From Thiotrichaceae bacterium (lineage in GTDB: Bacteria; Pseudomonadota; Gammaproteobacteria; Beggiatoales; Beggiatoaceae): 64,000 bases of DNA. The DNA is taken from NCBI GenBank assembly GCA_028688145.1, contig JAQTYU010000006.1:1-64000 (forward strand). Direction: 5' to 3'. Position 1 is the first letter of the stretch. Each line of letters starts with the position of its first letter. Made by a program: the position numbers and the translations under genes. Under the pieces are notes generated by a model that saw only the letters and a program-made list of their open reading frames with translations, did not search any database and had not been told where the DNA came from. Of this stretch, positions 23,327 to 29,258 are shown piece after piece.

Positions 23327-23388
23327 GACCTCATATCTGTCGATGGCTTTTTCACTCGACAGATGAGGTTGAGTATGGATAGAAACAT
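23327..23388 (+). repeat. CRISPR-repeat-like hairpin, copy A
   Basis: ACCTCAT-AT-CTGTCGA (23328-23343) pairs with TCGACAGATGAGGT (23356-23369), and is followed by GAGTATGGATAGAAACA. Stem sequence differs from copy C (25349) while pairing is kept, so structure appears conserved. The 3' end resembles the TGGATTGAAAC end of type I-C CRISPR repeats. No array and no cas gene is nearby. Confidence 0.7.
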
Positions 23389-23448: not shown

Positions 23449-23493
23449 GACCTTGTGGAATGCCATCGACAGGTTGGATGTGGATTGAAACAT
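23449..23493 (+). repeat. CRISPR-repeat-like element, copy B
   Basis: It begins GACCTTGTGG, contains CATCGACAGGTTGGATG and ends TGGATTGAAACA, the same 3' segment as copies A and C. The stem is short and imperfect, and the middle part is in reverse orientation relative to A and C, so this is a decayed or rearranged copy. It lies just upstream of the likely TTG start of the transpeptidase. Confidence 0.55.
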
Positions 23494-23510
23494 CAATCGA
23501 GAGTTTTATC

Positions 23511-24032
23511 TTGTCTCCCGACCTTATCAACTCAGTATTTCCAGTTCCCACACAGGCTTATTTAAAAATCAGCTTGGCACAGCAACGCTTATTTCTTATA
23601 GAAAATAGTCAAGTATTATTTGAATGTCCAGTGTCCACAGGTAAAAATGGTGCGGGCGAAATTTATGGTAGTGGTTGTACGCCGCGTGGCTGGCTGGTGA
23701 TTAAGGCAAAAATCGGGGCAGACTGTCCTGAAAATTCGGTATTTATTGGGCGACGCGCCACAGGTGAAATCTACAATCCACAATTGCAAGCACAATTCCC
23801 AGAACGCGATTGGATTCTGAGCCGCATTTTATGGCTGGGCGGGCTAGAACCTGGAAAAAATCGTTATGGCGCGGTGGATACTTTACGACGTTTTATTTAT
23901 TTGCATGGCACGCCCGACGCGGTGCCGCTCGGTGTGGCAAATTCTAAAGGCTGCATACGGCTGCATAATGCGGAATTAATTCATTTATTCGAGCAGGTCA
24001 CGGTGGGAACGAGGGTGTTTATTGGCAAATAA
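23511..24032 (+). CDS. L,D-transpeptidase (YkuD) family protein
   Basis: The YkuD domain forms 3-3 peptidoglycan cross-links or attaches proteins to peptidoglycan. The ~173-residue product shows LKISLAQQRLFLIENSQ, STGKNGAGEIYGSGCTPRG, IYLHGTPD (His) and the catalytic SKGCIRLHN (Cys). No signal peptide is seen, which is usual for this short subfamily but odd for a periplasmic enzyme. The frame is open from ATG 23460, but that start lies inside hairpin copy B; TTG 23511 with GAGAG upstream is more likely. Confidence 0.85.
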   Translation: MSPDLINSVFPVPTQAYLKISLAQQRLFLIENSQVLFECPVSTGKNGAGEIYGSGCTPRGWLVIKAKIGADCPENSVFIGRRATGEIYNPQLQAQFPERDWILSRILWLGGLEPGKNRYGAVDTLRRFIYLHGTPDAVPLGVANSKGCIRLHNAELIHLFEQVTVGTRVFIGK

Positions 24033-24156: not shown

Positions 24157-25095
24157 ATGTCCGCATTGATTTGTGGTTCTTATGCCTACGATACCATCAT
24201 GGTATTTAATGATAAATTTAAAAATCATATCCTGCCCGAACACGTTCATATTTTGAATGTATCCTTTCTCGTGCCCGACATGCGCCGCGAATTTGGTGGT
24301 TGTGCTGGCAATATTGCCTACAATTTAAATCTGTTGGGCGGCAAAGCTCAAGCGATGGCAACTGTGGGCAAAGATTTCGCACCCTATGCCGAGTGGATGG
24401 ATAAATGCGGCTTATCGCGCGAGCATGTGTTGGTGGTGGATAATTCTTACACCGCACAAGCTTTCATCACCACCGATATGGATGATAATCAAATCACTGC
24501 GTTTCACCCCGGTGCAATGAGCCATTCGCATTTGAATAAAGTCAGTGATGCGAAAGGGGTGCGAGTGGGAATTGTGTCGCCTGACGGGCGCGAAGGCATG
24601 ATTGAACATGCTTTGCAATTTAGCAGTGCAGGTATTCCGTTTGTGTTCGATCCCGGTCAAGGCTTGCCAATGTTTGACGGCAATGATTTATTGGCATTTA
24701 TCGAACAAGCCTCATGGGTTATCGTGAATGATTATGAATGGCAAATGATGCAGCAACGCACAGGGCTTACGCCAGAACAAATGCGTGGACGGGTCAAAGC
24801 TTTAATCATTACTAAAGGCAGCCAAGGTTCTACGATTTACACCGCTGAGGCTGTGCATGAAATTCCTGCGGCAAAAGCGCAAAATGTTTACGACCCCACG
24901 GGCTGTGGCGATGCGTTTCGCGGGGGCTTGTTATATGGTTTGATGAATGATATTGATTGGGAAACCACGGGGCGTATTTCCTCGCTGATGGGCGCACTCA
25001 AGATTGAACATTACGGCACGCAAAACCACAGTTTCACTTTGAATGAGTTTAAAGCGCGTTTTCAAGAAAACTTCGGTTATGAATTGATGTTGTAA
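24157..25095 (+). CDS. PfkB-family sugar/adenosine kinase
   Basis: The 312-residue product is a ribokinase-fold kinase, closest in character to adenosine-kinase-like proteins of proteobacteria. It has the N-terminal ICGSYAYDTIMVF, the glycine-rich substrate segment REFGGCAGNIAYNL, VNDYEWQMM, the ATP-site KGSQGSTIY and the PfkB signature DPTGCGDAFRGG with the catalytic Asp. Substrate cannot be fixed from sequence alone; adenosine or a ribose-like sugar is plausible. A paralogue lacking key residues follows at 25436. Confidence 0.9.
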   Translation: MSALICGSYAYDTIMVFNDKFKNHILPEHVHILNVSFLVPDMRREFGGCAGNIAYNLNLLGGKAQAMATVGKDFAPYAEWMDKCGLSREHVLVVDNSYTAQAFITTDMDDNQITAFHPGAMSHSHLNKVSDAKGVRVGIVSPDGREGMIEHALQFSSAGIPFVFDPGQGLPMFDGNDLLAFIEQASWVIVNDYEWQMMQQRTGLTPEQMRGRVKALIITKGSQGSTIYTAEAVHEIPAAKAQNVYDPTGCGDAFRGGLLYGLMNDIDWETTGRISSLMGALKIEHYGTQNHSFTLNEFKARFQENFGYELML

Positions 25096-25102
25096 GTCTG
25101 TT

Positions 25103-25169
25103 AATTTCAGCATCAGCACAATCTTCGTGTGTAGGAGCACGTTGCGCGTATAAAGCTGATGCTGAAATT
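25103..25169. repeat. 15-bp inverted repeat after first kinase gene
   Basis: AATTTCAGCATCAGC (25103-25117) and GCTGATGCTGAAATT (25155-25169) are perfectly complementary, with a 37-base loop. It starts eight bases after the kinase stop and may act as transcription terminator or RNA-stabilising hairpin. No T tract follows. Confidence 0.6.
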
Positions 25170-25348
25170 GCGATAATACAGGCTGACGGTGCAGCAAATT
25201 AACCAAGCCCGCTTAACATAGTATAAAATTGCGCTATGCTCACAAAACTATTTGTGAATGCTGGTTCTAATTAGATATGTCAGAAATATATCCATAAATG
25301 GGACATGTTCTAAAAAGTTTTTATTGATTTAGTTTTAAAAAAATCTCT

Positions 25349-25409
25349 GACCTCTCTCTGTCGATGGCTTTGTTACTCGACAGAGAGAGGTTGGGTGTGG
25401 ATTGAAACA
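25349..25409 (+). repeat. CRISPR-repeat-like hairpin, copy C
   Basis: ACCTCTCTCTGTCGA (25350-25364) and its exact complement (25377-25391) form a 15-bp stem around a 12-base loop, followed by TGGGTGTGGATTGAAACA. It ends 27 bases before the ATG of the second kinase. The remaining gap 25170-25348 holds no other feature I can recognise. Confidence 0.75.
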
Positions 25410-25435
25410 TTGCATTATTTTTAGGAAGCATTTAG

Positions 25436-26371
25436 ATGTCTGCCCTTATCTGCGGCTTTCTCAGTTACGATACTGTGATGGTGTTTAACGATAAATTTAA
25501 ACATCATCTGCAATCGAATATGCCTGCATTGGATGTACGTTTTCTCGTGCCCGACATTCGCCGCCAGTTTGGGGGGAATGCGGGCAATATTGCATATAAC
25601 CTGAAATTATTGGGCGAGAAGACTTTGCCAATGGCGACCGTGGGCATGGATTTTCATCAGTATGCAGACTGGTTGGATACCTGTGGAATTTCGCGGCAAT
25701 ATATTTCTGTGATGGAACATTGCTATACCCCACAAAACTTTATCACTATTGATATGGATGATAACCATATCACCGCCTTTCATCCTGGCGCAATGAGTTT
25801 TTCCCAATTTAACCGTGTGCCGCACAATGTTCATTTTGATGTGGGAGTCATCACCGCTGATAACACTGAAGCGATGTTGAAACATGCCTTAGAATTGGTG
25901 GAAGCTAATATTCCATTTGTGTTTCATCCTGCGCAAAGTATTCATGATTTGGATGGCGATGAGCTGATGAAATTTGTGGAGCAGGCGACGTGGATTTTAG
26001 TGAACCGCAGCGAATGGCAAATTATGCAAAAGCGTCTGGGCTTAAGTCCGCAGCAAGTGGCGCAACGTGTCCAAGCTTTAATTGTCACCATTGGAGCGGA
26101 AGGGTCGCTGATTTACTCGAATGAAACTCGTTATCAAATTCCTGCGGCGGCTGCCAAAGCGGTCAATGACCGTATGGGCTGCGGCGCGGCGTATTGTGCG
26201 GGTTTGGTCTATGGCTTGATTAAAGACATTGATTGGGAAACTACAGGGCGCATTGCTTCATTGATGGGGGCGATTAAAGTCGAACATCACGGCACGCAAA
26301 ATCATAGTTTTACCCTTGAACTGTTTAAAGCGCGTTTTAAGAAAAATTTTGGATATGCGTTGATTATTTAA
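25436..26371 (+). CDS. PfkB-family paralogue, probable pseudokinase
   Basis: The 311-residue product aligns along its whole length with the kinase at 24157 (same start MSALICG, same QFGGNAGNIAYNL, same GTQNHSFTL end), so it arose by tandem duplication. The catalytic signature DPTGCGDAF has become NDRMGCGAAY: the general-base Asp is Ala. The ATP-site KGSQGS is IGAEGS, and FDPGQ is FHPAQ. The frame is intact, so the protein is probably kept for a non-catalytic or regulatory role. An AGGAAG ribosome-binding site precedes the ATG. Confidence 0.88.
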   Translation: MSALICGFLSYDTVMVFNDKFKHHLQSNMPALDVRFLVPDIRRQFGGNAGNIAYNLKLLGEKTLPMATVGMDFHQYADWLDTCGISRQYISVMEHCYTPQNFITIDMDDNHITAFHPGAMSFSQFNRVPHNVHFDVGVITADNTEAMLKHALELVEANIPFVFHPAQSIHDLDGDELMKFVEQATWILVNRSEWQIMQKRLGLSPQQVAQRVQALIVTIGAEGSLIYSNETRYQIPAAAAKAVNDRMGCGAAYCAGLVYGLIKDIDWETTGRIASLMGAIKVEHHGTQNHSFTLELFKARFKKNFGYALII

Positions 26372-28525: not shown

Positions 28526-28996
28526 TTAAAATGTCTGCAAAAGAAGCCAAGGATGTTGAAACTGAGCCTGCATAAACATAAAACCCTCTGTGCAGGAATC
28601 AATACCTGAAAGCCTTAACAAATCGACTAAGAGATGTAGCTTGAAACCATAAAACCATCCTGTTGAAGATTTGCCTCTTTCCGCGTCATCCTTGAAGATT
28701 TTGTGACGTGAAATCCGCAGATTATCGCAAACCCGTAAAGGCGTTGAATCAATAAAGGCAATCCCATTCCCTATAGCACAACGGCTTTTCATGAAGAAAG
28801 TCAGTAGAATCAAGATGTCAGGTAAAAGCTCAATGAAACGATTGTAGGAGACAAACTTCGGAAATGCTTGAGACAGATGTTGATGACGGGTGTAAAACCA
28901 TATAATCGTGTTAAATTCATGGTAGGCAAGCTCATTGAGAATTATGAAATGTAGAGACTTTATATTTTCTCAGATTTTATTCAGCTTGCCTTCCTT
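28526..28996 (-). pseudogene. IS982-family transposase remnant
   Basis: On the minus strand, from about 28950 to 28620, the translation shows SYNRFIELLPDILILLTF, GIAFIDSTPLRVCDN and RGKSSTGWFYGFKLHLLVD, typical of IS982 transposases. The 3' half is missing and the frame runs into unrelated sequence. Bases 28981-28996 match the inner left end of the IS982 copy at 55104, so the element is truncated at both ends. Confidence 0.75.
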
Positions 28997-29258
28997 GACG
29001 GGTACAAAACCTGTTTTACCTAGGGCTGCCTTCTTTTGAGGGTTTAGCTGATAGCTCAAATTGGAGTTTATCCCTGATTTCAGGGTAAAACTTCTCTAAC
29101 TCTTTCCGAATACGTTCTGGATGATAGCCCTTATCCAACAAGATTGTAGTCTTTCCGCTCTCTCGGAGTTTCTCCCTGAAATAATCGAGGGACTGCTTGA
29201 ACATCTCAATCAAACCTACGTCATCACTAATATTGGCTTTTGTACAGTGCGTGAACAA
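28997..29258 (-). pseudogene. IS5-superfamily-like transposase fragment
   Basis: The minus-strand frame from 29258 has TKANISDDVGLIEMF, TTILLDKGYHPERIRKELEK and LQFELSAKPSK, as in DDE transposases of the IS5 group. A frameshift follows; the continuation GKTGFVPV is in another frame and stops abruptly at the IS982 end at 28996. It is therefore an older element cut by the IS982-like insertion or deletion. Confidence 0.6.

Follow-up and report, generated by a model that had tools for sequence, protein, structure and literature searches.

A nucleoside kinase homologue and a paralogue with an altered catalytic core in a family of large sulfur bacteria

The gene pair and its surroundings

The window, a stretch of 64,000 nucleotides from a Thiotrichaceae bacterium, carries two neighbouring genes of the PfkB/ribokinase family, P1 and P2, with the following features.

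24157..25095, + strand: P1, predicted Burkholderia thailandensis nucleoside kinase (BthNK)-type nucleoside kinase (PfkB/ribokinase family), intact, 312 aa, DPTGCGDAF complete
24889-24918, + strand: YDPTGCGDAF of P1, residues 245-254 counted from the P1 start at 24157, counterpart of NDRMGCGAAY in P2
25096..25435, + strand: P1-P2 gap of 340 bp with strong hairpins and a copy of a palindromic repeat
25436..26371, + strand: P2, paralogue of P1, putatively catalytically impaired, 311 aa, with Ala251 for the catalytic Asp, Cys254 for Arg, and the ribose-binding residues retained
26165..26194, + strand: altered heptad region NDRMGCGAAY of P2, residues 244-253 counted from the P2 start at 25436

The first-pass annotation had described two genes that align end to end, and this was borne out: both frames are open and the proteins share 59% identity over their full length. 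The PfkB domain (Pfam PF00294, cut-off 25.8 bits) spanned nearly the whole length of P1 (133.5 bits, E 1e-38) and of P2 (115 bits, E 6e-33), which places both in the PfkB/ribokinase family. They were the sole two matches reported in the window's genome.

In a phmmer search of solved structures, P1 matched PDB 3b1n, the BthNK structure, most closely (E 2.4e-120), and P2 matched the same entry with an E-value of 3e-78. The predicted fold of P2 (mean pLDDT 86.7) superposed on BthNK with a Z of 42.9 and an rmsd of 3.1 over 301 residues at 42% identity, and its Z values against ribokinase-family structures were 31-43. The entry titles of the 3b1n group name a nucleoside kinase with inosine or mizoribine bound. 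Because P1 and P2 match BthNK in sequence, and P2 also in its predicted fold, they are of the nucleoside kinase kind and not sugar kinases. As P1 has all the active-site motifs, including the complete DPTGCGD heptad, together with close homology to 3b1n, it is predicted to be an active BthNK-type nucleoside kinase of purine salvage.

The 340 bases between P1 and P2 fold far better than shuffled sequences (z −5.8). A long hairpin lies right after the P1 stop (25105-25170) and has no other match in the genome. Separate from it, an interspersed palindromic repeat of about 60 bp was found at 25349-25411, its arms at 25351-25364 and 25377-25390 being perfect over 14 bp; the genome has 20 more matches to it, including one at 23327-23388 of the window, upstream of the gene for a CBS protein. 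A functional link of P2 to this nearby CBS protein had been suggested earlier, but the CBS gene is no conserved neighbour in 41 other stretches from 36 genomes, and none of the neighbours of the window's pair clusters with any gene there. At 23460-24032 the window encodes a YkuD-domain protein, whose nearest model is the L,D-carboxypeptidase ElsL of cell-wall recycling (192.5 bits, below the cut-off of 270). Two short frames at 28526-29258 on the minus strand are presumably broken transposase pieces, to judge by the letters.

Catalytic core and ligand site of P2

Adenosine kinases build their anion hole from the heptad (DTNGAGD in mouse), whose last residue is the catalytic Asp; adenosine is the first ligand to bind, the lid shuts by means of a Gly-Gly hinge, and the anion hole takes shape with the arrival of ATP (excerpts of PMC6086891 and PMC3101181). 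The window's P2 reads DRMGCGA where P1 reads DPTGCGD, and the comparison of NDRMGCGAAY with YDPTGCGDAF puts Ala in the place of the catalytic Asp (GCGD to GCGA). This loss had been pointed out in the first-pass annotation and is clear from the alignment, so that the window's P2 lacks the catalytic Asp in the GxGD motif of an active BthNK-type nucleoside kinase. Two other replacements had been noted beside it. The Asp to His change lies at P1 D165 (P2 H164), a position with Asp in 63/63 P1-type and outgroup proteins. The Lys to Ile change (K220/I219) is present as well, but it is not diagnostic, as P1 copies of the family also carry Arg or Gln there.

P2 was compared with its relatives in an alignment of 18 P2-type proteins, the family's 37 P1 proteins, and 26 homologues found in the class outside the family. 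These 26 are the new loci taken up outside the family from the 202 class genomes with a match. Asp252 (P1 numbering) was present in 63/63 P1 and outgroup proteins and in 16/18 P2 proteins, with Ala in the window and Glu in genome G015. The loss of an essential Asp therefore holds for the window's P2 but not as a rule of the clade. Gly251 was kept in 8/18 P2 proteins and replaced by Asp, Glu or Arg in the rest, which sets a charged residue right before the catalytic-Asp place in 10 of the 18; Gly249 was kept in 13 and non-Gly in five. Taken as a unit, the core Gly249-x-Gly251-Asp252 was altered in 14/18 P2 proteins, compared with 0/63 P1 and outgroup proteins, and it was whole in four (G014, G016, G020, and G021), which may be active enzymes. 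Parsimony required at least four state changes at position 251, two at 252, and two at 249 within P2. The core has thus been broken in differing ways by several independent changes. Arg255 was replaced by Cys in all 18 P2 proteins.

Retention was also assessed over 102 near-invariant columns, defined as those with one residue in at least 98% of the 63 P1 and outgroup proteins. P2 proteins kept 60% of the heptad compared with a mean of 71% (P 0.19), and the heptad was accordingly rejected as an exceptional hot spot of change. The most diverged part of P2 was the lid stretch 17-39, with 38% of its near-invariant residues kept (P 0.0001). The four ribose and hinge residues were better kept (97%, P 0.037). 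Asp12, Gly48, and Asn52 (P1 numbering) were found in 18/18 P2 proteins and Gly47 in 16/18, so the ribose-binding Asp, Gly-Gly, and Asn of BthNK-type nucleoside kinases are present in P2. Mapped by motif, Asp12, Gly48, and Asn52 correspond to Asp34, Gly80, and Asn84 of mouse adenosine kinase, which hold the ribose (excerpt of PMC6086891).

The surroundings of the base showed a different picture. Ser36 was replaced in all 18 P2 proteins (by Tyr in 10 and His in five) and Gln168 in 13. In Mycobacterium tuberculosis adenosine kinase (AdoK), Ser8, Ser36, Phe116, Gln172, Gln173, and Asp257 are ligand contacts, and residues of the lid stretch touch the base. By these contacts, the residues around the base are poorly kept in P2, and its ligand need not therefore be the substrate of P1. 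The diverged lid would suit a new ligand and an altered contact with a partner equally well. Low model confidence in the P2 lid (residues 17-41, pLDDT <50) was rejected as evidence that the lid has gone, because the P1 control model was equally poor there (20-42).

A changed base pocket and lid could also mean that P2 is still a kinase which acts on another substrate after neofunctionalisation, the anion-hole changes slowing catalysis and not abolishing it. The replacements at Ser36 and Gln168, the strongly diverged lid, the Asp252 kept by 16 P2 proteins, and the complete core of four would all suit such an enzyme. The charged residues before the catalytic-Asp place, the five non-Gly residues at 249, and the Ala of the window's P2 would not, and the heptad drifts even among relatives, which is unexpected in a working active site. 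We regard this explanation as unlikely, though it deserves to be taken seriously.

Selection, age, and linkage of the pair

Four pairs of relatives with both genes, none from the window's own genus, were used to estimate selection. The dN/dS values were 0.078, 0.042, 0.046, and 0.062 for P2 and 0.029, 0.042, 0.063, and 0.044 for P1 (NG86, or maximum likelihood where NG86 failed), and they are rough, with dS above 1 in three pairs. Over the whole protein, P2 differed at 182/1248 sites and P1 at 176/1245. At the heptad, P2 differed at 6/28 sites and P1 at 0/28; the 6/28 against 32/380 gave a Fisher P of 0.035, a small test with interdependent cells. Since the dN/dS values and whole-protein differences of the two genes are similar while the heptads differ, selection holds the P2 protein with much the same strength as P1, and only its phosphate-transfer loop drifts by comparison. 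An intact gene under selection whose catalytic residues are lost, which is the mark of a pseudokinase, is thus seen across the four pairs and the 14 altered cores; for the window's own P2, selection is only bounded.

Neutral decay in close relatives had been named beforehand as an observation that would speak against a kept function. It is rejected for the lineages of the four pairs (dN/dS 0.04-0.08), whereas genome G019 has only a remnant of P2. In the window's lineage, differences between its P2 and that of G014 were distributed over the three codon positions as 0.27/0.15/0.61, similarly to P1 (0.23/0.13/0.53), and 311 codons without a stop give neutral drift of at least 0.1 substitutions per site a probability of at most 0.04. 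P2 might nevertheless have become useless recently in this lineage, with decay just beginning. The Asp252 to Ala change, found in the window alone among the 18 P2 proteins, would agree with this, as would the lineages that have no P2 and the G019 remnant. The frame and length of the window's P2 are intact, however, and the third-position excess and the absence of stops also stand against it, so recent decay appears improbable to us.

In a tree of 81 proteins, a branch of length 0.28, with support 100/99, divided the 18 P2 proteins from the 63 P1 and outgroup rows. Across the 42 genomes of the window's family, which were also those of the order search, P1 was found in 37 and P2 in 18; the absences are soft because some of these genomes are incomplete. 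Records with P2 include Thiomargarita, Thioploca, and Albibeggiatoa. A P2 paralogue with a damaged core occurs in other genomes too, and for this reason chance does not account for the observation in the window. P2 was missing from 19/37 genomes with P1, among them the 99% complete G018 with P1 alone, which means that P1 does not generally need P2. In G019 (L066 4007-4177), a C-terminal P2 remnant of 57 residues lies directly downstream of an intact P1; here P2 has been lost through decay or deletion.

Outside the family, two copies were found in one genome only (G299) in the class search, where 202/369 genomes had matches. These were rejected as P2-type, since both read DPTGCGDAYRAG with the motif intact. 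At the level of the phylum, matches occurred in 39/398 genomes, and the window's genome was the only one with two copies. By its place in the tree and its spread, the P1-P2 pair is old, P2 having arisen through an early duplication of P1 within the family.

The first-pass annotation had proposed looking for the pair in related genomes, and there P2 followed directly after P1 on the same strand in 13/18 cases, with gaps of 15-340 bp. Flanking genes vary widely among these genomes, though the order and strand of the pair are kept. In the other five genomes, P2 lies apart from P1, in G035 by about 450 kb on one contig. Such separation would be expected if P2 were an independent, nucleoside-responsive scaffold for other proteins, with adjacency to P1 a mere relic of tandem duplication; the PfkB-type proteins FLN1 and FLN2, which are reported to belong to the plastid RNA polymerase complex, offer a parallel. 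The linkage has survived in 13 genomes despite the changing flanks, however, and no conserved neighbour of P2 in the 41 other stretches points to another partner. We therefore consider an independent role very improbable.

Proposed role and comparison with known systems

The explanation we prefer, with roughly even confidence, is that P2 is a maintained, catalytically impaired, ribonucleoside-binding paralogue that acts as a subunit or partner of the working nucleoside kinase P1. P1 would phosphorylate purine nucleosides for salvage. P2 would be a folded, ribonucleoside-binding protein with weak or absent phosphate transfer; a nucleoside would be bound through the kept ribose site (Asp12, Gly48, Asn52) and the Gly-Gly hinge, and the lid would close. 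As a subunit or partner, P2 may then alter the activity or stability of P1, by analogy with dead paralogues elsewhere. For the window, we infer the inactivity of P2, its nucleoside binding, and its action through P1. On this account, P2 catalysis weakened or disappeared repeatedly. The earlier suggestion of a kept non-catalytic function stands in so far as P2 is kept under purifying selection with an impaired core, but it may not extend to the four P2 proteins that could be active. P1 columns were also searched for those separating the 18 P1 proteins with P2 from the 19 without. Only columns 42 and 218 did so, weakly and by conservative swaps; they give no sign of a co-evolved P1-P2 contact, and co-evolution of P1 with the presence of P2 was rejected.

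A more specific and rather doubtful form of the subunit proposal is that P2 is a nucleoside-sensing regulatory subunit, which would keep ribose recognition, read a different base or ligand, and gate the adjacent kinase. The changed reading is suggested by the replacement of Ser36 in all 18 P2 proteins, with Tyr or His in 15. If this were true, it would represent prozyme-like control of purine salvage in bacteria, restricted to a single family of large sulfur bacteria, with several independent losses of catalysis in that family. More generally, P1 and P2 would be a case of a bacterial small-molecule metabolic kinase kept beside a dead twin across a whole family. The relatives show stages in the loss of catalysis, from an intact core through an altered anion hole and a lost Asp to a bare remnant, and with these natural variants the role of an enzyme copy after its catalysis ends can be tested directly by comparison.

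A literature search by title gave nothing on a PfkB pseudokinase pair or a catalytically dead nucleoside or adenosine kinase, and nothing on a Beggiatoa adenosine kinase. Among known proteins, BthNK (PDB 3b1n-3b1r) is a close relative of P1 and shares its fold and ribose residues with P2. BthNK has the complete motif, whereas the window's P2 is without the catalytic Asp and the following Arg and its lid stretch has diverged. AdoK of M. tuberculosis (PDB 2pkf among other entries) belongs to the same subfamily (E 4e-53 with P1, 1.6e-35 with P2) and is an active enzyme, unlike the apparently impaired P2; it is not known to have a paralogous partner. It has been reported as a dimer formed through the lid (excerpt of PMC3101181).

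For plant FRUCTOKINASE-LIKE 1 and 2, which are likewise of the PfkB type, a non-metabolic role as part of a complex has been proposed (excerpt of PMC3409070). They differ from P2 in belonging to the fructokinase branch and in being plastid proteins. Further parallels are enzyme pairs of trypanosomes. The AdoMetDC prozyme of T. brucei is a dead paralogue that activates the enzyme (excerpt of PMC5201418), and in the deoxyhypusine synthase pair, too, the paralogue of the enzyme is catalytically dead (excerpt of PMC3663545). These pairs have unrelated folds, are eukaryotic, and their activation has been measured, whereas activation of P1 by P2 is a proposal. P1 and P2 are thus not a new kind of system, as dead-paralogue pairs and non-metabolic PfkB proteins such as FLN1 and FLN2 are already known.
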